DNA of 36,178 nucleotides from Nitrospira sp. (GTDB lineage Bacteria; Nitrospirota; Nitrospiria; Nitrospirales; Nitrospiraceae): positions 1-36,178 of the forward strand of contig JABFSU010000029.1 of NCBI GenBank assembly GCA_013140455.1, in the 5' to 3' direction. The notes under the pieces are model-generated. The model was not told the origin of the DNA and searched no databases. It saw only the letters and a program-made list of their open reading frames with translations. The position numbers and the translations under genes are program-made. Below are positions 26,109 through 35,530 of the stretch, piece by piece; the stretch's first letter is position 1; every line of letters begins with the position of its first letter.

Positions 26109-27497
26109 CTACTCGTCGTGAGTCTTTTTGAGCCGCCGGTCCAAAGCGAAGCGGGTCATCCCGAGATGCTTGGCCGCCAGCGTCTTGTTGTAGTCGGCCA
26201 GCCGCAAGACTTCTTCCACGATCGCTCCCTCCACATCGGCGAGCGACTGCTGACCCAGCTTCATCTCGACCCGAACGACCGGCTCCGGTCCCGGCGCCGT
26301 GGTGACAGCCACATGTCTGCCTTCCTCGCGCAGCTCCGCCGGCAAACAACTCGGCGCCAGCGTCCGGCCCTGACAGAAGATCATGGCCCGTTCGAGAATA
26401 TTCTGGAGCTCGCGGATATTTCCCGGATAGTGATAGCGCTCCAGCAACGTGCGGGCCTCCGGGTCCAGCTCAGGCACCGGCTTCCCGAACTCCTGAGCGA
26501 ACCGGACCAGAGCGCGCTGACAGAGCGGAAAGATGTCTTCCACTCGACTCCTCAGCGGCGGCAACTCGAACGCGACCACGTTGAGTCTGAAATAGAGATC
26601 CTCGCGAAACGCCCCGCGCCCTACCTCTTTTTTGAGGTCGCGATTCGTGGCCGTGATCAGGCGGAAATCCACACCGATATCATCGGTCCCTCCCAGGCGC
26701 CGGAAGGAACGCTCCTGGATGACGCGCAGCAATTTGGCCTGCATCGAAAGATCGAGATCCCCGATTTCATCGAGAAACAGGGTCCCCCCCTCCGCTTTTT
26801 CAAGCAGCCCGAGCTTGCGCTGGTTCGCACCGGTAAAGGCGCCGCGCTCGAACCCAAACAATTCGCTCTCGAACAGCTCCTTGGGAATCGCCGTGCAGTT
26901 GACCCCGATAAACGGCTCCGACGCCCGGGCGCCGTTGTGATGAATCACGCGCGCCAGAAATTCCTTCCCCGTTCCGGTTTCACCCAGCAGCATCACCGAC
27001 GACTTGGGATTCTCGGCCACCTCGCGGACCTGCTCGAGCAACTGCTTCATCACGTGGCTCTGCGCGACCAGATGGCTCAACTGGTATTGACTGTCCCGGT
27101 GCTCGAGTTCGGATTCGAGGCGACGGCGGAGACTCACCACGTCCAGCACCCGGACGACCACCGGATCGATCCCTTCCAGATCCACCGACTTGATCAGAAA
27201 ATCGTAGGCCCCCAGCTTCATCGCCTCCACGGCATCCTGCACCGTCCCATAGGCCGTCAGCATGATTACCATGGCGGACGGGGCCAACTGCCGCAGACTC
27301 TTCAACGTGTCGAGACCGTTGAGACCGGGCATCTTCAGATCGAGCAAGACAAGATCGGGCAGCTCGTGCCGGAGCGCCTCCAGCAGCGCTTCACCGGATT
27401 CATACCCGACGGCACGATGCCCCTGCCGGGTCAGCCGCTTGACGATCGCGGCGCGAATCGCCTGTTCATCATCCGTGACAAATACCACTGCGCGCAT
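26109..27497 (-). CDS. NtrC-class sigma-54 response regulator
   Basis: This 462-residue protein has three domains. The receiver (1-120) carries acidic DDE, phospho-acceptor Asp in LVLLDLKMPG and Lys in FLIKSVD; the usual Pro after that Lys is Ser. The AAA+ domain (about 145-375) has Walker A GETGTGKE, the sigma-54 contact loop GAFTGA, Walker B TLFLDEIGD and an arginine-finger region. A Fis-type HTH is at the C-terminus (VEEVLRLADYNKTLAAKHLGMTRFALDRRL). It is read three bases after the kinase gene. It should activate sigma-54 promoters; the best candidates are the two predicted in this window at 29604 and 35367. Confidence 0.95.
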   Translation of the reverse strand: MRAVVFVTDDEQAIRAAIVKRLTRQGHRAVGYESGEALLEALRHELPDLVLLDLKMPGLNGLDTLKSLRQLAPSAMVIMLTAYGTVQDAVEAMKLGAYDFLIKSVDLEGIDPVVVRVLDVVSLRRRLESELEHRDSQYQLSHLVAQSHVMKQLLEQVREVAENPKSSVMLLGETGTGKEFLARVIHHNGARASEPFIGVNCTAIPKELFESELFGFERGAFTGANQRKLGLLEKAEGGTLFLDEIGDLDLSMQAKLLRVIQERSFRRLGGTDDIGVDFRLITATNRDLKKEVGRGAFREDLYFRLNVVAFELPPLRSRVEDIFPLCQRALVRFAQEFGKPVPELDPEARTLLERYHYPGNIRELQNILERAMIFCQGRTLAPSCLPAELREEGRHVAVTTAPGPEPVVRVEMKLGQQSLADVEGAIVEEVLRLADYNKTLAAKHLGMTRFALDRRLKKTHDE

Positions 27498-27500
27498 CGG

Positions 27501-29429
27501 TCAGCCTTTCGCTATCTGAGAACGTTGACTCAACGGGAACCAAATTCTCACAGAAGTTCCTTTGCCCGGCTCGCTCGTCATATGAATATCTCCGCCGTGG
27601 CTTTCAACGATATTTCTGCAGATGGCCAACCCTAATCCCGTCCCATGCCGTTTCCCCGTCGTATAAAACGGTTCAAACACATGGGGCAACACCTCCGAGG
27701 AAATCCCGATGCCGGTGTCTTTGACGAGCACCACGATGCCCGGCCGATCCTGGCTGGACAATTCGTACGCCGTGACGTCGATAGCCGCGCCGTTCATCGG
27801 AGAGGCATCGATGGCATTGTGAATGACATTCAGGAGCACCTGTTTGATCTGGTCTCGATCGGCATGCACCTGAGCGGCCGTCGGAGACAGCGACGTCTGA
27901 ATGGCCAGACGTTTGGCCTGCAACGGCACATCGAGCGTTTTGACGACTTCGGCGATCAATCCGGAGAGGTCGAACAGCACCGGCGCCAGCTCCCGAGGCC
28001 TCGCATATTCGACGATTTGATTGACGATGCGATCCAGTCGTTTCGCTTCTTTCAAAATCACATCGATGTCGATCCGTCGCGGATCGTCGCTTGAGAAATC
28101 ATCCAGCAGGAGCGAGGCGGTCGACCCGATCCCGACCAGCGGATTCCTGAGCTCATGGGCAATACCGGCCGCCACTTGGCCCAGCATCGCCAGATGCTCC
28201 GCCCGGCTCAATCGGGACTGCAAATTCTCCAGCGCCGTAATATCGACGTTGAATCCCACATACACCTGCTCGACACCGCCGCCACCCGCGATGGGCAACC
28301 GGCGGCTCAACACTTTTCGCACCCCGCCGTCCTTGTGCAAAAAGCGGAATACCGTTTCGCACGGTTGTCCCTGCGTGACCGCCTGCCCAAACTCTGACAG
28401 CACTCGATCCCGATCCTCGGGATGGATGCATTCCCTGAAAGCATCAGGATCCACCAGATCATCAGGATCGAGCCCCGCCAGTTCCTGATTGTAGCGATTG
28501 CTGAACGTGATCAACATTCCCTTTGTGGTAAAAATCCCGAACGGCGCATGATCGACAAGGCCCCGGTATTTCGCCTCCGACGTCACGAGGTGTTCGTTCA
28601 GCTGGCGCAGCGCGGCCTCGGATTTCTCCATCTCGTTGAGATGCCCGCGAATCTGGGTGCTCATGTCATGCATCACTCTCGTGAGATCTCCGATCTCGTC
28701 TGTGCGCGCCAGCACGGCGATCGCCGGGACGAGACCTGCGGGCGAAGAACCGACCGTCGTGGCCAGATTGAGCAGCGGAGCCGCGATCGAGCGGGCGATC
28801 AGATACAGCGCGCCGACCGTCAACCCGAACGTAAAGACGCCGCCGACCAGAACGACGAACAGCGTGGAGGTGCGATCCTGACTCAATTGCGCCAGCTTTT
28901 CAGCGACGCTCTGCTGCTCAAACCGGTCAAAGATCCCCATCTGCCGCCGAATCTCGACCATCAGTTCCCGCCCGCGCCCTTCTTCGATGTAATGAAAGGC
29001 TTCCTGCTTGTGGCCGTCTTTGATCGCACGGATCAAGGCCTCTTTCTCCGTCACCAACTGGACGACGAGGGTCTGAATGTCGCTGAAGCGATCCGACTGC
29101 TCACCTGAAATGCGCCCTGCAAGATCACGACCGATGGCATCGATCCCTTCCTGCGCGACGCGATAGGGACGCAGATACCGGTATTGTTCGGTCAGCACAT
29201 AGCCCCGGAACCCGGTCTCCAGATCGACGACCAGCCGCATGTACTCGGCCGCATTTTTTTGCGTCACATAGAGACTGTCCAACTGCTCTTCGTCCTGCGA
29301 AAACGTTTGCACGCTCTGGTAGGTCATCACGCTCAAGACGATGAGCGCGACCAGCGGAATGAACGACGCAAGCAGCAGCTTGCGATGAATCGGAAAATTG
29401 TTGAACAGGCGGGCGGCGCGCTCTCGCAT
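27501..29429 (-). CDS. CHASE3-HAMP-PAS sensor histidine kinase
   Basis: This protein of about 642 residues has a first membrane helix (LLLASFIPLVALIVLSVMTY) and a periplasmic CHASE3 domain (AEYMRLVVDLETGFRGYVLT). A second helix (LFVVLVGGVFTFGLTVGALYLIA) leads to a HAMP region, a PAS domain (YRGLVDHAPFGIFTTKGMLITF), a HisKA dimerisation helix with phospho-acceptor His in GIAHELRNPL, and an HATPase_c domain (NVIHNAIDAS, DTGIGI, GTGLGLAI). The ATG at 29429 has GGAG five bases upstream; the ATG at 29453 adds eight residues. It forms a two-gene unit with the sigma-54 regulator and is divergent from the channel/efflux operon. The signal is unknown. Confidence 0.93.
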   Translation of the reverse strand: MRERAARLFNNFPIHRKLLLASFIPLVALIVLSVMTYQSVQTFSQDEEQLDSLYVTQKNAAEYMRLVVDLETGFRGYVLTEQYRYLRPYRVAQEGIDAIGRDLAGRISGEQSDRFSDIQTLVVQLVTEKEALIRAIKDGHKQEAFHYIEEGRGRELMVEIRRQMGIFDRFEQQSVAEKLAQLSQDRTSTLFVVLVGGVFTFGLTVGALYLIARSIAAPLLNLATTVGSSPAGLVPAIAVLARTDEIGDLTRVMHDMSTQIRGHLNEMEKSEAALRQLNEHLVTSEAKYRGLVDHAPFGIFTTKGMLITFSNRYNQELAGLDPDDLVDPDAFRECIHPEDRDRVLSEFGQAVTQGQPCETVFRFLHKDGGVRKVLSRRLPIAGGGGVEQVYVGFNVDITALENLQSRLSRAEHLAMLGQVAAGIAHELRNPLVGIGSTASLLLDDFSSDDPRRIDIDVILKEAKRLDRIVNQIVEYARPRELAPVLFDLSGLIAEVVKTLDVPLQAKRLAIQTSLSPTAAQVHADRDQIKQVLLNVIHNAIDASPMNGAAIDVTAYELSSQDRPGIVVLVKDTGIGISSEVLPHVFEPFYTTGKRHGTGLGLAICRNIVESHGGDIHMTSEPGKGTSVRIWFPLSQRSQIAKG

Positions 29430-29513
29430 GGACTCTCCATGAAGCTGTGTCATCCTATGAGTGAGATCCCTGCCCTGTCAAATGCCCGCCGGCTCGTTAT
29501 CCGTGTCTCTCAA

Positions 29514-29544
29514 TCGCACCGTGCGATCCGTGCGAAACCGCTCG
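29514..29544 (+). promoter_or_regulatory. Candidate enhancer (upstream activating) site 1
   Basis: A perfect palindrome TCGCAC-C-GTGCGA (centre 29520) is followed by a GTGCGAA half-site at 29530 and by CGCTC. The same 31-base arrangement, with 24 matching positions and identical spacing, occurs at 35287-35317. It lies 86 bp upstream of a sigma-54 promoter, in the divergent gap next to the histidine kinase gene, a normal place for an NtrC-class activator site. It could also serve for autoregulation. Confidence 0.65.
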
Positions 29545-29603
29545 ATACGACTTCAATGCGAACCGGGGCCGGGACAATTGCTCCGTTTCTACGGATGGCG
29601 CCA

Positions 29604-29621
29604 TTGGCACCGACGTTGCTT
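29604..29621 (+). promoter_or_regulatory. Sigma-54 (-24/-12) promoter for the FNT/efflux operon
   Basis: The sequence TTGGCACCGACGTTGCTT carries the -24 GG and -12 GC with exact spacing and nearly the whole sigma-54 consensus (TTGGCAC-N5-TTGCT). Transcription would start near 29631, about 60 bp before the channel ATG at 29691. A divergent sigma-54 activator gene and an upstream palindrome support the call. Confidence 0.8.
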
Positions 29622-29690
29622 AGTTGCTCCTCAGCCCCCAAAGCGAGCGACGAACCGGACCGCAACAATAGGAACAGAAGGAGGACCGTG

Positions 29691-30560
29691 ATGGACTACG
29701 TCAAACCTCTCGGCGTTGTAGAAAGCATGCTGGCCGGCGGCGCCATCAAGCTGAACGTCCCTCCTCGACATCTGGTCATTCGAGGCATGTTGGCCGGCGC
29801 CTATCTGGGAATTGCGACCAGCATGGCCGTGACGGTCGCCGTCGAGACCGGATCCTGGATTGCCGGCAGCCTCCTGTTTCCCTTCGGACTGGCGCTGGCG
29901 ATCCTCCTGGGAACGGAAATCATCACCGGCAGCTTCGCGCTGCTGCCCTGTGCCGCCGTCGCGAGCCGCGGACAGGTCGGGATGAGTCGCGTGCTGGCCA
30001 ACTGGGGCTGGGTTTTTCTCGGCAATCTCCTGGGCGCGACGCTCTACGCGGGACTCTTCGCGCTCTGCTTGACAACCGCATGGGACAACGCGGTTCCCCC
30101 GGTCGGTGCGAAGCTGATGGCGATTGCCGAAGCCAAAACGAACTACTACGCGGCCCATGGCTCCGCCGGTCTGCTCACGGTCTTCACCAAAGCCGTCCTC
30201 TGCAATTGGATGGTGAGTCTGGCCGTCGTCGCGTCATTTGCCTCCAACTCCTTCGGAGGAAAATTACTCGCCATCTGGGGACCGACGGTCCTCTTCTTCT
30301 CCCAGGGGTTTGAACATGCGGTCGTCAACATGTTCGTGATCCCGGTCGGCATGCTGCTCGGCGCCAACGTCACGGCATCCTCCTGGTGGCTCTGGAATCA
30401 AATCCCGGTGACGTTAGGCAATCTGGTCGGGGGCATGCTGTTTACCGGCATGGCCATCTATCTGACTCACCGGCCCGCCGTGCCGGCCGTGAGTCAGCCC
30501 GTTCCAACGATCCAACCAACCCCGGCCTCCGCACAGCAAGGCTATTCCCCGTCTTTCTAG
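29691..30560 (+). CDS. Formate/nitrite transporter (FNT) family channel
   Basis: This 289-residue protein starts at the ATG behind GAAGGAGGA. It has six membrane segments and the FNT hallmarks: an early GGAIKLNVPPRHLVIRGMLAGAYLGI, AILLGTEIITGSFALLP, the central-pore His in FFSQGFEHAVVNMFVIP, and a repeated half-channel structure. FNT channels pass formate, nitrite or hydrosulfide as anions. In a nitrite-oxidising bacterium nitrite uptake would be the obvious role, but the substrate is not fixed by sequence. The short Pro/Gln-rich C-terminus is likely cytoplasmic. It heads a four-gene operon under the predicted sigma-54 promoter. Confidence 0.92.
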   Translation: MDYVKPLGVVESMLAGGAIKLNVPPRHLVIRGMLAGAYLGIATSMAVTVAVETGSWIAGSLLFPFGLALAILLGTEIITGSFALLPCAAVASRGQVGMSRVLANWGWVFLGNLLGATLYAGLFALCLTTAWDNAVPPVGAKLMAIAEAKTNYYAAHGSAGLLTVFTKAVLCNWMVSLAVVASFASNSFGGKLLAIWGPTVLFFSQGFEHAVVNMFVIPVGMLLGANVTASSWWLWNQIPVTLGNLVGGMLFTGMAIYLTHRPAVPAVSQPVPTIQPTPASAQQGYSPSF

Positions 30561-30572
30561 ATTAGGAGCACG

Positions 30573-32171
30573 ATGGCAGCGGTGTTTCTCAGAAGATTGC
30601 GGGGCTGGCGGTTCGTGCTCTTCAACGCCGTCCTCGGCCTGGCGCACATCGTGGTCCTGTTCAATGCCGGTTCGTATATCGCACTGTTGCCGCACGTCTC
30701 CGGCGACCTCGGCGGCGTCCTGCCGAGTTTTCTCACCTGGGCGCAAACCGATTTTATGGTCGGGCTGGCGCTCGGGTTTCCCCTGGCGCGCTATCTCTCC
30801 GGCCGTGTCGGCGACTATCGTCTGCTGATCGGCGCGTTCCTCGTCTACAGCATCGCCTCTTATCTGTGCGGCGCCAGCGAAACCCTCTCGCAATTTCTCC
30901 CGGCCCGGATCGCGCAAGGCATTGCCGGCGGCATCACCTTGCCGATCGCCCAATCGATGTTGCTGAATGAGTATCCGAAACGGTTGAAAGCGGTGGCCCT
31001 GAGCATCTGGGGCTTGTTCAGCATCACGCCCTTTACCATCGGCATGCCGGTCGGCGGCTACCTGGCCTACCTGTTCGGCTGGCGATCCCTCTTCTACCTG
31101 GATTTTGTCCTGACCATGATTATCGTCGGGACACTTGGAGCACTCCTCTACGGACGCGGGTTCCGCCGACGATACGGGCGCTTCGACCTCGTAGGCTTTC
31201 TGCTGCTTCTGATCCTGCTGCTGGGCATGCAGACCTTCCTCAACATGGGCAATGATTTCGACTGGCTGGATTCTCCCCTGCTCCAAGCGATCGCTGTCGT
31301 CCTGTTGATCGCCCTGCCCTGTTTCGTGATCTGGGAACTCGGCGAGCGGCACCCCACGCTGGATCTTCGATTGTTTCAACATCGGAATTTCGTCATCGGC
31401 GTCACGTGCCTGACCATCGGATTCTTTTCCATCCAGGGCCTGCTCTCGCTCCTGATCGTGCAAATCCAGCTGATCCTGGGCTATTCGTCGAAACTCGCCG
31501 GGCTGGCGCTGCTCCCGCTGGTTCTCCTCGGCGCCCCTGCCATTGCCGTCATGCACCTGCTCTGCAAATACATCGATGCGCGCTGGCTGATCTGTCTCAA
31601 CAGTCTCGGATTTGCCGCAACCTTTTACTGGATCGGCTTGTTCGACGATCCCCACTCATATGACCAGCTCTTCTGGCCCATGGTCGTCGAAGGCATCTTC
31701 CTGGGATCGTTCTTTACGCCGTTGACGGTGCTGATCCTGCACGGCCTGTCCGGTCCTCTGGTCATGCGCGCGGCCGAAGTCGCTAATCTGTTGCGCGTCG
31801 CAGCCGGCGCGTTCGGCATCACGTTCCAAAGCATCGTCCTCTTTCGGCGGACGCACTTTCATCAACTCAATTTGGCCGATCACTTCGGCGGGCGGCTGTC
31901 GATCTCGTACGATCCCTTGAGTCAATTGACGGCCAAACTGATTGAAGCGGGACTCGCGCCGTCGCAGGTCAATGCCAAGCTCGGCGCATTGATCAAACAG
32001 GAAGCGGCCATCCTGAGCCTGAACGATGCATTCCTGGTGGCCAGCGGCTTGTTCCTCGGCATCGGCGCGCTGGTCTGGTTCGCGCATCCGACCCATGTGC
32101 CCCTCTCGCCGACTCCGGCGGATGAGCTGCGGGAGCTCCGCGCGGAAGCCTTGATCGAGGAGGTGCCATGA
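30573..32171 (+). CDS. DHA2-family (EmrB-like) MFS efflux transporter
   Basis: This 532-residue protein has about 14 hydrophobic segments, as in the DHA2 drug:proton antiporters. Conserved parts include FNAGSYIALLPHVSGDLG, the motif ARYLSGRVGDYRLLIG, FLPARIAQGIAGGITLPIAQSMLLN and IGMPVGGYLAYLFGWRSLFYL. It starts 12 bp after the FNT gene. Its last codons overlap the outer-membrane factor gene by four bases. With the next two gene products it should form a tripartite EmrAB-TolC-like pump. The exported compound is unknown; the link with an anion channel suggests toxic metabolites or anions. Confidence 0.9.
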   Translation: MAAVFLRRLRGWRFVLFNAVLGLAHIVVLFNAGSYIALLPHVSGDLGGVLPSFLTWAQTDFMVGLALGFPLARYLSGRVGDYRLLIGAFLVYSIASYLCGASETLSQFLPARIAQGIAGGITLPIAQSMLLNEYPKRLKAVALSIWGLFSITPFTIGMPVGGYLAYLFGWRSLFYLDFVLTMIIVGTLGALLYGRGFRRRYGRFDLVGFLLLLILLLGMQTFLNMGNDFDWLDSPLLQAIAVVLLIALPCFVIWELGERHPTLDLRLFQHRNFVIGVTCLTIGFFSIQGLLSLLIVQIQLILGYSSKLAGLALLPLVLLGAPAIAVMHLLCKYIDARWLICLNSLGFAATFYWIGLFDDPHSYDQLFWPMVVEGIFLGSFFTPLTVLILHGLSGPLVMRAAEVANLLRVAAGAFGITFQSIVLFRRTHFHQLNLADHFGGRLSISYDPLSQLTAKLIEAGLAPSQVNAKLGALIKQEAAILSLNDAFLVASGLFLGIGALVWFAHPTHVPLSPTPADELRELRAEALIEEVP

Positions 32172-33682
32172 CATCCCGCTTCATCACGGCACCACGCCTG
32201 CGGGTCAGCGTCGGCATCGGCTGCGCGCTGTTCTTCGGCAGTTGCGCCTGGATTCCACCGGGAAATCCTCCGGCCGAGCTTCTCGAACCACCGGAAATGC
32301 AAGAGACTCTGGCCGAGGTCACGAGCCGGCTGCAACAGTGGCCGGAAGATCGCTGGTGGGCGCAATTCGGCAATCCGGAATTGAACGAGCTCATCGACGC
32401 GGCCCTCAAGGATAACCCCAGCCTCAAGCGCGCATCCGCGCGGCTGCGGGAAGCGGAAGCGCTGGTGAAAGTGGAAGGGGCGCGGCTGCTGCCGTTTCTG
32501 GAGGCCGATGCCTCGCTGACCCACGAACGCATTTCGCAGCACGGCGTGTTTGCAGTCCTGAACCCGAAAGTGGCGGGAGACAAGATTCTGCTGGGGATCG
32601 TCAACCCGCTGAGCTTCCGGTACGAGTTCGATTTCTGGGGGAAGAACCGGGCCACGGTCGAAGCGGCGCTGGGACAGGCGGCCGCGGAGGAAGCTGAAAA
32701 GGCCGAAGTGCGCCTGCGGCTGACCGCCGCCATTGCACGGTCCTACTTCAAAGGACAAGCGCTTCAGCAGCAGCTCGACATCGTGAAAACCCTGGTCGGC
32801 ATCCGCCGGAATCTGCGTACGCTTGCAGAAACCCGCTTCCGTCTCGGCCTGGACAACGAACAGCCGGTGAAAATCGCCGTCGCGGACTATGAAGCGGCCT
32901 TCAAACGGCAAGCCGGCCTCCGCGATCAACTGGACGTCCAGCGCCATGTGCTTGCGCGGCTGGCCGGTCAAGGCCCGGATCACGCGCTGCATCTGTTTAC
33001 GAAGCCGGTTGTCGTGATTCCCGAGCAGATTGCCGCTCCCGACCATCTCTCCATCGGGCTGCTGGTCCGCCGTCCCGATCTGGCCGCGGCTCTCTACCGG
33101 GCCGACGCCGCTGCACGATTGGTCAAAGTTGCCAAGACGCAGTTTTATCCCACAATCGATCTCACCGCCTTCGTGGGCTTCAACGCGCTGACGCTGATGC
33201 GACACGCCGATAAATTGTCCAATCTGCTGTTCAGCGGCCAAAGCAACTCGTATGGCTTTGCGCCGGGCCTGCGCATGCCCTGGTTTGAGGGCGGACGGCT
33301 GCGGGGAGAACTGGCGGCGCAACGGGCCGAATACGACTCCGCCGTAGAGCTCTACAATGAAACGCTGCTCGATGCGATGCGCGACGTGGCGGACAGTCTC
33401 AGCGCCTGGCAATCGACGCGCGAGATGATTGAGTCGCACAAGCGCCTGATGGCGTCGCTTGGCGAAGACGTGCAATTGGCGAAAGTGCGGCTGGTGACCG
33501 GCCTGGACGACGACCGCGAGGTCTTGCGGCATCGCCAGCCGGTGCTGGAACAGGAATATGCCTTGCGCGTGCTGGAAAGCGACCAGTTGGTGGCGGCCGT
33601 CGATCTCATCGAGGCACTGGGCGGGGGCTATAAGAATCAGGACATCGAAAAGAGACCACAACACAACCCGAGTACACCATGA
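32168..33682 (+). CDS. NodT/TolC-type outer-membrane efflux lipoprotein
   Basis: This 504-residue protein has a signal sequence with lipobox FFGSC (Cys26), followed by the family pattern RWWAQFGNPELNELIDAALKDNPSLKRASARLREAEA. A second internal repeat carries LLVRRPDLAAALYRADAAARLVKVAKTQFYPTIDL, the usual OEP motif. It is expected to form the trimeric outer-membrane channel. ATGA overlaps join it to the pump gene before and the fusion-protein gene after, supporting one transcript and stoichiometric production. Confidence 0.92.
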   Translation: MTSRFITAPRLRVSVGIGCALFFGSCAWIPPGNPPAELLEPPEMQETLAEVTSRLQQWPEDRWWAQFGNPELNELIDAALKDNPSLKRASARLREAEALVKVEGARLLPFLEADASLTHERISQHGVFAVLNPKVAGDKILLGIVNPLSFRYEFDFWGKNRATVEAALGQAAAEEAEKAEVRLRLTAAIARSYFKGQALQQQLDIVKTLVGIRRNLRTLAETRFRLGLDNEQPVKIAVADYEAAFKRQAGLRDQLDVQRHVLARLAGQGPDHALHLFTKPVVVIPEQIAAPDHLSIGLLVRRPDLAAALYRADAAARLVKVAKTQFYPTIDLTAFVGFNALTLMRHADKLSNLLFSGQSNSYGFAPGLRMPWFEGGRLRGELAAQRAEYDSAVELYNETLLDAMRDVADSLSAWQSTREMIESHKRLMASLGEDVQLAKVRLVTGLDDDREVLRHRQPVLEQEYALRVLESDQLVAAVDLIEALGGGYKNQDIEKRPQHNPSTP

Positions 33683-35211
33683 CAACAACACCGCCGCTAT
33701 CCAATACGGCCACGACTTCGCCGGCGCCGGGCTCTTCCCGGATCCATCCCAAGGCTATCCGTGCCCGCCGGAACCGGCGGCTGTTGATTGTGGCCGGACT
33801 CGTGCTGATCGCCACCGTCGGCTATCTCAACTACTGGTGGACGCACGACCGGTTCTGGGTCCGCACCGACAACGCCTATGTGACCGGCAACCTCGTCCCG
33901 GTCGCGGCACAGGCTTCAGGAATTGTCACGCAGGTGCTGGCCGAGGAAACACAATTTGTGAATCGGGGCGACTTGATGATCCGTCTCGACGAACATCAGG
34001 CCTACGCGGCATTGGGCCGCGCGCGCGGACATCTCGGAGAAGAAGTCCGGCGCATTGCGGCGCTGTTCATGACCAGAAAACAGCTGGCGGAACAATTGAC
34101 CTCACGGTCTGCCCGCGTGAATCTGGCGCTCCACGACATGGCGCGCTATCGGGCGGCGGCGGCGAGCGGCGCTGTGTCCAAGCAAATCCTCCAAAATACG
34201 TCCGACAAAATCCTGTCACTGGAAGCGGACGTGCGGGAAACCCAGGCGGAACTCGATACGCTCGATGCGCAGGTGGGCGGCACGACCGTCATGGCGCACC
34301 CGGCCGTCGAGTTGGCCAAACACCAGCTCATTGAGGCCTATCTGGAATACACCCGCCAACAGATCAAAGCCCCGATATCCGGCTATGTGGCCAAACGAAA
34401 GGCGCAGGTCGGCGATCGCGTGCATCCCGGCGCGCCGCTCATGACGATCGTGCCGCTGGATCATTTGTGGGTTGAGGCGAATCTGCGTGAAACCGAGTTG
34501 CAGCATATCCGGCCGGGACAGACGGCGCTGGTCAACGTCGGCCTGTACGGATCGCAATACACGTTTCACGGCACGGTCGAAGGGCTCGTGCCCGGCAGCG
34601 GAAGCGCCTTCGCCTTGTTGCCGCCGGACAATGCTACGGGAAACTTCATCCATATCGTCGAACGGGTTCCGGTCCGTATCGCGTTGCCGGAACAGGAAAT
34701 CCGTGAGCATCCGATCAGGCCGGGCCTCTCCACCGTCACCAAGATCAATATCGGAGAATCCGGTCAGTCCCTGTGGTCGTCTTCCGCCTCGTCTTCAACG
34801 GCGGAATATTCCACCGATGTCTATGCCGACGAGCTTCCCACCGCAGAAGCGATGGCGAAAGAAGTGATGACCAATAATCTCGTGATCGCAAACCGTGACG
34901 AATCGAGCGACGTGCTGCTCGCGCGCGAAGGCGGGAGCGATCGACCGGCGGACATGGAACAAGGCACCTGGCGAAAATCCTCCAAAGCCATGCCCCCTGT
35001 CGATCCAGCTGTGAGGCCCGAGCGCTTCGACCATACTCCCCGCTCTTATGTTCCACGACACAGTCCCGATATGGGAGACTCAACCTCTCCGCTGACTCCC
35101 TCCATCGGTCCAGGCTCCGGATTACTGGGTCCGGAAGGGGGACGCAGCCCATCCCGACTCCGCCTGGATTTCGATCTGGAGCACGGAAGGCAATCCTTCG
35201 AGTCCAGATAA
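33679..35211 (+). CDS. EmrA/HlyD-type membrane fusion protein with long C-terminal tail
   Basis: This 510-residue protein has one membrane helix (LLIVAGLVLIATVGYLNYWW). The EmrA pattern follows: RTDNAYVTGNLVPVAAQASGIVTQVLAEE, a coiled-coil hairpin (about 110-215), a second lipoyl half (IKAPISGYVAKRKAQVGDRVHPG) and WVEANLRETELQHIRPGQTALV. EmrA homologues normally end near residue 360-390. This one carries about 140 further residues rich in Ser, Pro and Asp (TAEYSTDVYADELPTAEAMA and onward) that look disordered. It bridges the DHA2 pump and the outer-membrane factor. The tail's role is unknown. Confidence 0.9.
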   Translation: MTTTPPLSNTATTSPAPGSSRIHPKAIRARRNRRLLIVAGLVLIATVGYLNYWWTHDRFWVRTDNAYVTGNLVPVAAQASGIVTQVLAEETQFVNRGDLMIRLDEHQAYAALGRARGHLGEEVRRIAALFMTRKQLAEQLTSRSARVNLALHDMARYRAAAASGAVSKQILQNTSDKILSLEADVRETQAELDTLDAQVGGTTVMAHPAVELAKHQLIEAYLEYTRQQIKAPISGYVAKRKAQVGDRVHPGAPLMTIVPLDHLWVEANLRETELQHIRPGQTALVNVGLYGSQYTFHGTVEGLVPGSGSAFALLPPDNATGNFIHIVERVPVRIALPEQEIREHPIRPGLSTVTKINIGESGQSLWSSSASSSTAEYSTDVYADELPTAEAMAKEVMTNNLVIANRDESSDVLLAREGGSDRPADMEQGTWRKSSKAMPPVDPAVRPERFDHTPRSYVPRHSPDMGDSTSPLTPSIGPGSGLLGPEGGRSPSRLRLDFDLEHGRQSFESR

Positions 35212-35286
35212 CAGACGCCGATCCGCCTGTCAGCACTCCCGCTTTACTGGGTAAACTTCAGCATCACCCCTATCCCCACACCACAG

Positions 35287-35317
35287 CCGCACAGTGCGAC
35301 CTGTGCGAATTCGCTCA
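35287..35317 (+). promoter_or_regulatory. Candidate enhancer (upstream activating) site 2
   Basis: The palindrome CGCAC-A-GTGCG (centre 35293) with a GTGCGAA half-site at 35303 and CGCTC at 35312 repeats the arrangement at 29514-29544 with the same internal spacing. It lies 76 bp upstream of the -24 GG of a second sigma-54-like promoter, ten bases (about one helical turn) closer than site 1. Confidence 0.62.
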
Positions 35318-35366
35318 GTTTCATTGAGATCCAAGGTTGAAATGGCCGAAATTCAACCCTTCTGTG

Positions 35367-35384
35367 CAGGCACTAGCTTTGCTA
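35367..35384 (+). promoter_or_regulatory. Sigma-54-like promoter for the 34-residue membrane peptide
   Basis: The sequence CAGGCACTAGCTTTGCTA has GG and GC with the exact 10-bp sigma-54 spacing and keeps GGCAC and TTTGCT. The two T residues before the GG are replaced by CA, so it is weaker than the promoter at 29604. Transcription would start near 35394, about 32 bp before the ATG at 35426. Confidence 0.65.
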
Positions 35385-35425: not shown

Positions 35426-35530
35426 ATGATGAAGGATCTGGTGAAGTCATTCGGTGATAGAGAGTTGGCGTGGGTCATGCTTGCCATCGCCGGAATACTA
35501 GCGTGGAGCACCTGGGGACTGATTCCGTAG
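35426..35530 (+). CDS. 34-residue single-span membrane peptide
   Basis: The frame MMKDLVKSFGDRELAWVMLA continues with IAGILAWSTWGLIP, forming one hydrophobic helix after a charged N-terminus. An AAAGGAGA ribosome-binding site stands five bases before the first of two adjacent ATGs. The frame is open upstream to 35294, but that part lies within the promoter region and lacks coding character. The sigma-54-like promoter and enhancer site in front suggest it belongs to the same regulon as the FNT/efflux operon. Function unknown; small membrane proteins often modulate transporters or kinases. Confidence 0.62.
   Translation: MMKDLVKSFGDRELAWVMLAIAGILAWSTWGLIP

Follow-up and report, generated by a model that had tools for sequence, protein, structure and literature searches.

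Nitrospira are major nitrite oxidisers, including complete ammonia oxidisers, and the accessible parts of the literature describe little of their gene regulation. The closest described control systems are the NtrC, AtoC and ZraR two-component regulons, in which a histidine kinase (HK) is paired with a response regulator (RR) made of a receiver, a GAFTGA-containing AAA+ domain and a Fis-type helix-turn-helix (HTH), the operator is an upstream palindrome, the promoter is of the sigma-54 -24/-12 type, and the regulator lies near its targets. Among transporters, LCIA, a chloroplast protein of Chlamydomonas, is a low-CO2-inducible FNT channel. For N. marina and Ca. N. alkalitolerans, gene clusters that combine a BicA-like SulP permease with the Na+/H+ antiporter NhaB are reported (PMC8115632, PMC7784846), and NifA-like and sigma-54-dependent regulators lie beside nxr in Nitrospira (PMC6606698, PMC7522533); the portions of these accounts that were available treat the BicA clusters without regulation and give no operator sequence for the nxr-side regulators. 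Here we describe a 36,178-nt stretch of Nitrospira sp. DNA (GCA_013140455.1, contig JABFSU010000029.1; hereafter, the window) that carries a locus with the NtrC-type features listed above, the operator being a predicted one. Its HK-RR pair very probably activates RpoN-dependent promoters through the operator GWGCG-N4-CGCWC, and thereby controls an FNT-efflux operon and the gene of a 33-residue protein (Table 1). The regulon is a further case of the NtrC-class sigma-54 type, and the target met most often at the sites examined is a micro-protein that lacks a family model. It differs from the NtrC, AtoC and ZraR regulons in its operator and in its targets (anion channel, permeases, pumps and micro-membrane protein), and its RR scores below their NCBIfam equivalog cut-offs (AtoC: 424 of 714 bits; NtrC: 389.1 of 558.6 bits; ZraR: 341.3 of 760 bits). 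No description of this regulon was found in the available parts of the open-access literature. Open-access searches found nothing on nxrB sigma-54 promoters or on sigma-54 in connection with a small membrane protein, and there was no paper on an LCIA structure among the results listed.

Paired elements and sigma-54-type promoters in the window and its relatives

An earlier note on this DNA had reported two matching 31-base elements, each followed by a sigma-54-type promoter. Both were confirmed, at 29514–29544 and 35287–35317, with identity at 24 of 31 positions, and the promoters have the GG-N10-GC spacing described, with GG 86 bp from the palindrome centre at 29520 and 76 bp from the centre at 35293. 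The full element, CGCAC-N-GTGCG-N4-GTGCG-N4-CGCTC, has exactly two matches in the window (29515 and 35288, both on the forward strand), and the two promoters deviate from TGGCAC-N5-TTGCW by 0 and 1 mismatches. The window's own genome (G000) encodes RpoN (PF04552, E 3.4e-57). Within its 3.79 Mb, the 22-base core occurs without mismatch solely at the two window places; three further places appear when 3 mismatches are allowed, compared to 2 matches for the reversed control.

The two window elements are not due to chance. Similarity of GC-rich intergenic sequence would be the trivial explanation, and two results could be cited for it as points against a regulatory interpretation: when 2 mismatches are allowed, CGCAC-N-GTGCG by itself shows no enrichment in the window (27 found vs 35 expected), and the promoter consensus by itself, allowing 1 mismatch, does not exceed the genome control (45+47 vs 51+69). 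However, 40 first-order Markov copies of the window, searched on both strands, contained neither the full element nor the composite of element and promoter, reversed patterns gave zero matches in all five composite scans of the genus and the order, the spacing is fixed, and the upstream half recurs where it was not selected for. These counts already contradict chance, to which we assign a vanishingly small probability; the signal resides in the full element plus promoter, and neither in the bare palindrome nor in the promoter alone.

Conservation upstream of orthologous operons, which the earlier note had named as a check on its proposal, was found: element, promoter and spacing recur in six relatives that have the FNT-efflux operon and the small open reading frame (ORF). 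The composite pattern (two GTGCG half-sites and the promoter) was present in 11 of 79 genus genomes, with 0 reversed-control matches, and eight genomes contain a pair of composite matches (about 100 and 90 bp). Seven of the eight, among them the genome of the window, have the pair in front of the FNT operon and the small ORF, with a spacing one base shorter in G084 than in the other relatives; in G014 it precedes a gene without an assigned family, and the small ORF. Five genomes (G022, G040, G064, G072 and G086) have further sites, which resemble the full element less, with an RND pump on one side and the gene of a solute-binding protein on the other (families assigned by Pfam in G022). A second genus scan was positive in 4 of 79 genomes, including G006, which has no RR ortholog, and was kept out of the co-occurrence test reported below.

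A predicted 14-bp operator and its probable link to the response regulator

Relatives of the kinase N-terminus were found at 47 named loci, all in Nitrospirota. One distant family (f3) shares GTGCG-N4-CGCWC with the window, in front of a 51-residue protein gene adjoining SulP. On comparative grounds, the predicted core operator is the 14-bp palindrome GWGCG-N4-CGCWC. The 47 kinase loci contain 62 copies of it, compared to 3 of the reversed control, and intergenic copies are present in 35 loci, compared to 1 for the control. The bare palindrome CGCAC-N-GTGCG was considered as the core and rejected, being at chance level in the window (2 mismatches) and not turning up in front of the listed 51-residue genes. 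Because two full palindromes stand 24 bp apart upstream of SulP in two loci (L087 and L089), we read the CGCAC-N-GTGCG of the window as what probably remains, one half, of a second operator copy further upstream, together with an additional half-site.

The note had also suggested that the ten-base difference between the two window sites keeps the activator on the same helical face. This fits the window, where operator and GG are 52 and 62 nt apart, but at other promoters the gap is about 117–119 nt (before RND and the 51-residue gene) or 125–154 nt (before SulP, where both features occur), so strict helical phasing agrees with the data only in part. The loci examined contain 36 SulP-like ORFs, which were picked by sequence pattern and include some genomes twice. 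The palindrome stands no more than 700 nt upstream of 22 of them, and the other 14 have none there; several of the latter belong to f3 loci, where the palindrome lies behind SulP.

Scans of 235 genomes of the order for operator plus promoter were positive in 56 genomes at a gap of 44–74 and in 12 genomes at a gap of 95–125, and a variant (GAGCG start, KTGC promoter end) at a gap of 135–165 was positive in 35, with 0 control matches each time. The three scans combined gave 86 composite-positive genomes, of which 81 contain an RR ortholog, compared to 44 of the 149 composite-negative genomes (Fisher p 3e-24, without phylogenetic correction; ortholog defined as E<1e-180, with 25 genomes that have weaker matches counted as negative). 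At the level of single sites (113 from the 44–74 and 95–125 scans), 62 were on the contig of the RR, 47 on other contigs and 4 in genomes without the RR; 52 of the 62 same-contig sites were located within 35 kb of it. In addition, RF[AS]LDRRLK ends the HTH in 15 of the 15 compared RR orthologs with an intact C-terminus, including families that share the operator. The operator system is order-wide, with other targets in relatives, and its compactness makes it scannable in related genomes, where it yields a candidate regulator and target set.

Several observations weigh against the HK-RR pair as the controller. Ten of the 62 sites that share its contig lie more than 35 kb from the RR, and 47 of the 113 sites are on other contigs; 44 of the 125 RR-positive genomes have no composite under the patterns used, and 5 of the 86 composite-positive genomes have no detected RR ortholog. 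Moreover, G000 alone has 23 RR-like activator matches (E<=1e-60), therefore another activator could bind. If so, the sites would be sigma-54 enhancers of a different NtrC-type protein and their linkage to the HK-RR pair incidental, a possibility to which the GAF-type sigma-54 activator between nxrA and the efflux operon in G113 also lends itself. Set against the co-occurrence in 81 of 86 genomes, the clustering within 35 kb and the uniform HTH end, we consider this explanation quite improbable. Regarding the claim of the note that a divergent NtrC-class regulator is the binder, GAFTGA and the Fis HTH are present, whereas the FNT operon has the kinase gene as its immediate divergent neighbour and the RR is second on the reverse strand. 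Co-occurrence and proximity point to the HK-RR pair as the probable binder. The wiring that the note drew from kinase signal to anion channel, efflux pump and tiny membrane protein is supported, and reaches beyond the window to other targets in relatives.

In the mechanism that we propose for the HK-RR pair, a signal would be sensed at the CHASE3/PAS regions of the kinase, leading to autophosphorylation and then phosphotransfer to the RR. RR oligomers would assemble at GWGCG-N4-CGCWC and, through DNA looping, would activate the sigma-54 holoenzyme at -24/-12. The outputs in the window would be (1) the operon of the FNT channel and an EmrAB-TolC-like efflux pump and (2) the gene of the 33-residue membrane protein. 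The comparison shows that operator plus promoter recur, that their spacing at the small ORF is fixed, that they are linked to the RR and co-occur with it, and that the small protein is under selection. The steps from signal through phosphorelay and binding to activation are modelled on known NtrC-class biology.

Two side observations concern the regulator gene. The operator plus promoter at G006:C50:117846, in the genome without an RR ortholog, lies ~9 kb from a 51%-identical RR paralog whose HTH ends in WMLDRRRK, and in G002:C154 (L046 7776-9097) the RR gene is split over two frames in the assembly. Of the window genes in Table 1, the FNT protein exceeds the Pfam cut-off of its family (PF01226: 202.1 bits, cut-off 34.6) and falls under the NCBIfam cut-offs (fnt: 143 of 232.3 bits; NirC: 58 of 293 bits; FocA: 111.6 of 290.1 bits). 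PADLOC, which searches for defence systems, returned no match to either the MFS protein or the small protein. The ORFs given for loci of relatives are greedy longest ORFs and not curated genes.

Table 1. Coordinates of the regulatory elements and genes of the window, with the nxrA region of two loci from relatives
Feature	Position	Strand	Remarks
NtrC-class RR, proposed activator	26109..27497	-	receiver PF00072, sigma-54 AAA+ PF00158 with GAFTGA, Fis-type HTH PF02954
Sensor HK, CHASE3-HAMP-PAS-HisKA-HATPase	27501..29453	-	HAMP under its cut-off
Upstream part of element 1, CGCAC-N-GTGCG	29515..29525	+	read as probable remaining half of distal operator copy plus extra half-site
Core operator 1 (predicted), GTGCGAAACCGCTC (GWGCG-N4-CGCWC)	29530..29543	+	
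Sigma-54-type -24/-12 promoter, GGCACCGACGTTGC	29606..29619	+	precedes FNT-efflux operon
FNT-family anion channel	29691..30560	+	best solved relative LCIA
DHA2/EmrB-type MFS transporter	30573..32171	+	
Outer membrane efflux protein (OEP)	32168..33682	+	
HlyD-type membrane fusion protein	33679..35211	+	
Upstream part of element 2, CGCAC-N-GTGCG	35288..35298	+	
Core operator 2 (predicted), GTGCGAATTCGCTC	35303..35316	+	
Sigma-54-type -24/-12 promoter, GGCACTAGCTTTGC	35369..35382	+	precedes small ORF
33-residue protein, one hydrophobic span, signature GDRELAW	35429..35530	+	ATG 35429; ATG 35426 would give 34 residues
nxrA and adjoining GAF-AAA+ sigma-54 activator, between small ORF and FNT operon	L199 4391-9795; L198 3177-8590		L199 copy 7b04_B; L198 copy 95% identical

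The 33-residue protein and other proposed targets

Targets were classified by short sequence patterns in a selected subset of loci. Of the 87 distinct sites that are followed by sequence, 33 stand in front of a small ORF of the GDRELAW type, the most frequent target; next come a 51-residue gene (11 sites), FNT (8), a 141-residue CBS-like gene (8) and a solute-binding protein pattern (2; that of L160 is perhaps a chance match). The remaining 25 sites have no recognised target class, which adds to the points against the regulon as proposed. In relatives, the genes behind the operator encode SulP permeases, RND pumps, a solute-binding protein, or the CBS-like or 51-residue protein.

The GDRELAW-type ORFs are found in 31 distinct promoter contexts, in 27 of which the gap between operator and GG is exactly 52, even though 44–75 was allowed. 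Nineteen gap-52 contexts came from loci whose search pattern omitted the upstream CGCAC-N-GTGCG, and 18 of them have an exact copy of it. Column information was 1.84 bits for the operator, 1.61 bits for the promoter and 0.66 bits for the gap, values that are partly built in because operator and promoter letters stood in the search pattern; we place the weight on the spacing and the upstream half. The small ORF is under purifying selection (pS 0.619, pN 0.147, pN/pS 0.24), with pS exceeding pN in 435 of 435 pairs of 30 coding sequences (30 of the 31 contexts; L204, which has no exact GDRELAW, was omitted). It has a ribosome-binding site upstream, and both proteins of the family that were tested have one hydrophobic span. 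There was no family match in Pfam or NCBIfam, and we nominate this conserved micro-protein as a regulated membrane component, possibly a membrane partner of a transporter.

Two of the other target families were noted in several loci. A conserved 51–55-residue protein (MSEFSILYKSLHCEQK...NPFRALIAKIF; L162-L171) has the same operator plus promoter at a gap of about 117. A 141-residue protein (L135, L142, L144, L146 and L148) has the same operator and is called CBS-like because of its resemblance to L082 1560-2009 (PF00571); its gene is near the small ORF, on the opposite strand, in L135, L144, L146 and L148. The target genes of L037, L043 and L080 were porin-like by impression, and Pfam gave no porin family for them.

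Possible physiological role and neighbouring loci

Most likely, the regulon governs how anions are supplied across the cell envelope. The solved structure closest to the FNT protein of the window, a putative anion channel, is LCIA (110 bits, compared to 73.6 for the next), although LCIA belongs to a chloroplast. The SulP of G024 (L044) has 6ki1 (BicA) as its nearest solved structure. Next to the HK-RR pair, SulP is accompanied by a CitMHS-family protein in G024 and by NhaB in G036, an arrangement like the published BicA-like SulP and NhaB clusters; in contrast to those clusters, the linked operon of the window has FNT and no SulP. Based on these likenesses (FNT to LCIA, SulP to 6ki1, and the SulP neighbourhoods to the published clusters), we tentatively favour inorganic carbon, as bicarbonate, as what the regulon serves. 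The efflux pumps and the CBS-like protein, which have no obvious fit to bicarbonate, count against this preference, as does the standing of LCIA and 6ki1 as merely the nearest solved relatives: scores were below the NCBIfam cut-offs for fnt, BicA, NirC and FocA, for example 129.3 of 880 bits for the SulP of L202 against BicA. A broader version is more doubtful still, in which one HK-RR pair and its sigma-54 operator might control, depending on lineage, a BicA-like SulP or an LCIA-like FNT as an order-wide inorganic-carbon regulon, with the ~33-residue protein perhaps an assembly or gating subunit. In either form, the regulon suggests how autotrophic Nitrospira may control the uptake of anions, perhaps of bicarbonate.

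With the same wiring, the regulon could instead serve to import or export nitrite or to protect against it. Some members of the FNT family are nitrite channels, and the host of the window is presumably a nitrite-oxidising Nitrospira, its genome having two NxrA homologs. In G113 and G133, nxrA has the small ORF on one side and, on the other, the FNT operon with the HK-RR pair (the G113 copy matches 7b04_B at E 0), and an Fe-S protein that is NxrB-like by eye adjoins the pair in G036. The presence of a GAF-type activator and the HK-RR pair near nxrA in G113 and G133 recalls the sigma-54 regulators described beside nxrAB in Nitrospira, but no operator was found at nxrA here. The upstream stretches of L198, L199 and L217 contain just 2-mismatch palindromes and 1-mismatch promoter-like matches (the stretches from L216 and L049 fell inside the gene), a result that also speaks against the regulon as we interpret it. 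Because no operator with fewer than 2 mismatches was seen there, NXR is not claimed as a regulon member. Considering also that the operator precedes SulP in other lineages, we find service to nitrite unlikely.

A response to envelope or weak-acid stress, again with the same wiring and with the efflux pumps as the main output, would account for the EmrAB-TolC-like and RND pumps behind the sites. It would also agree with AtoC as the best NCBIfam score of the RR and with ZraR among the models listed, both below cut-off. At many sites, however, the target is the small, 51-residue or CBS-like protein and no pump, and at others it is SulP. Although the pumps could equally point to envelope stress, we find a stress regulon about as unlikely as service to nitrite.

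Other genes were noted near the HK-RR pair. In L049 (15663-19347; f3), the genes adjoining the pair encode an Fe-S protein and a 745-residue ORF that appear NxrB-like and NxrA-like, respectively, both by eye; Pfam gave just 4Fe-4S domains for the former and nothing for the latter. A second receiver-AAA+ protein of ~389–398 residues, 55–63% identical to the RR (L038 10805-11992, L046 4570-5739, L080 9694-10890), is encoded beside SulP and the HK-RR pair in several Nitrospira. The one scanned (L080) has no Fis HTH, and the protein is possibly an activator that works without DNA binding. Tll0287-like proteins (PF11845) are encoded at L044 8506-9081, where the gene is divergent from the kinase, and at L205 18725-19300.

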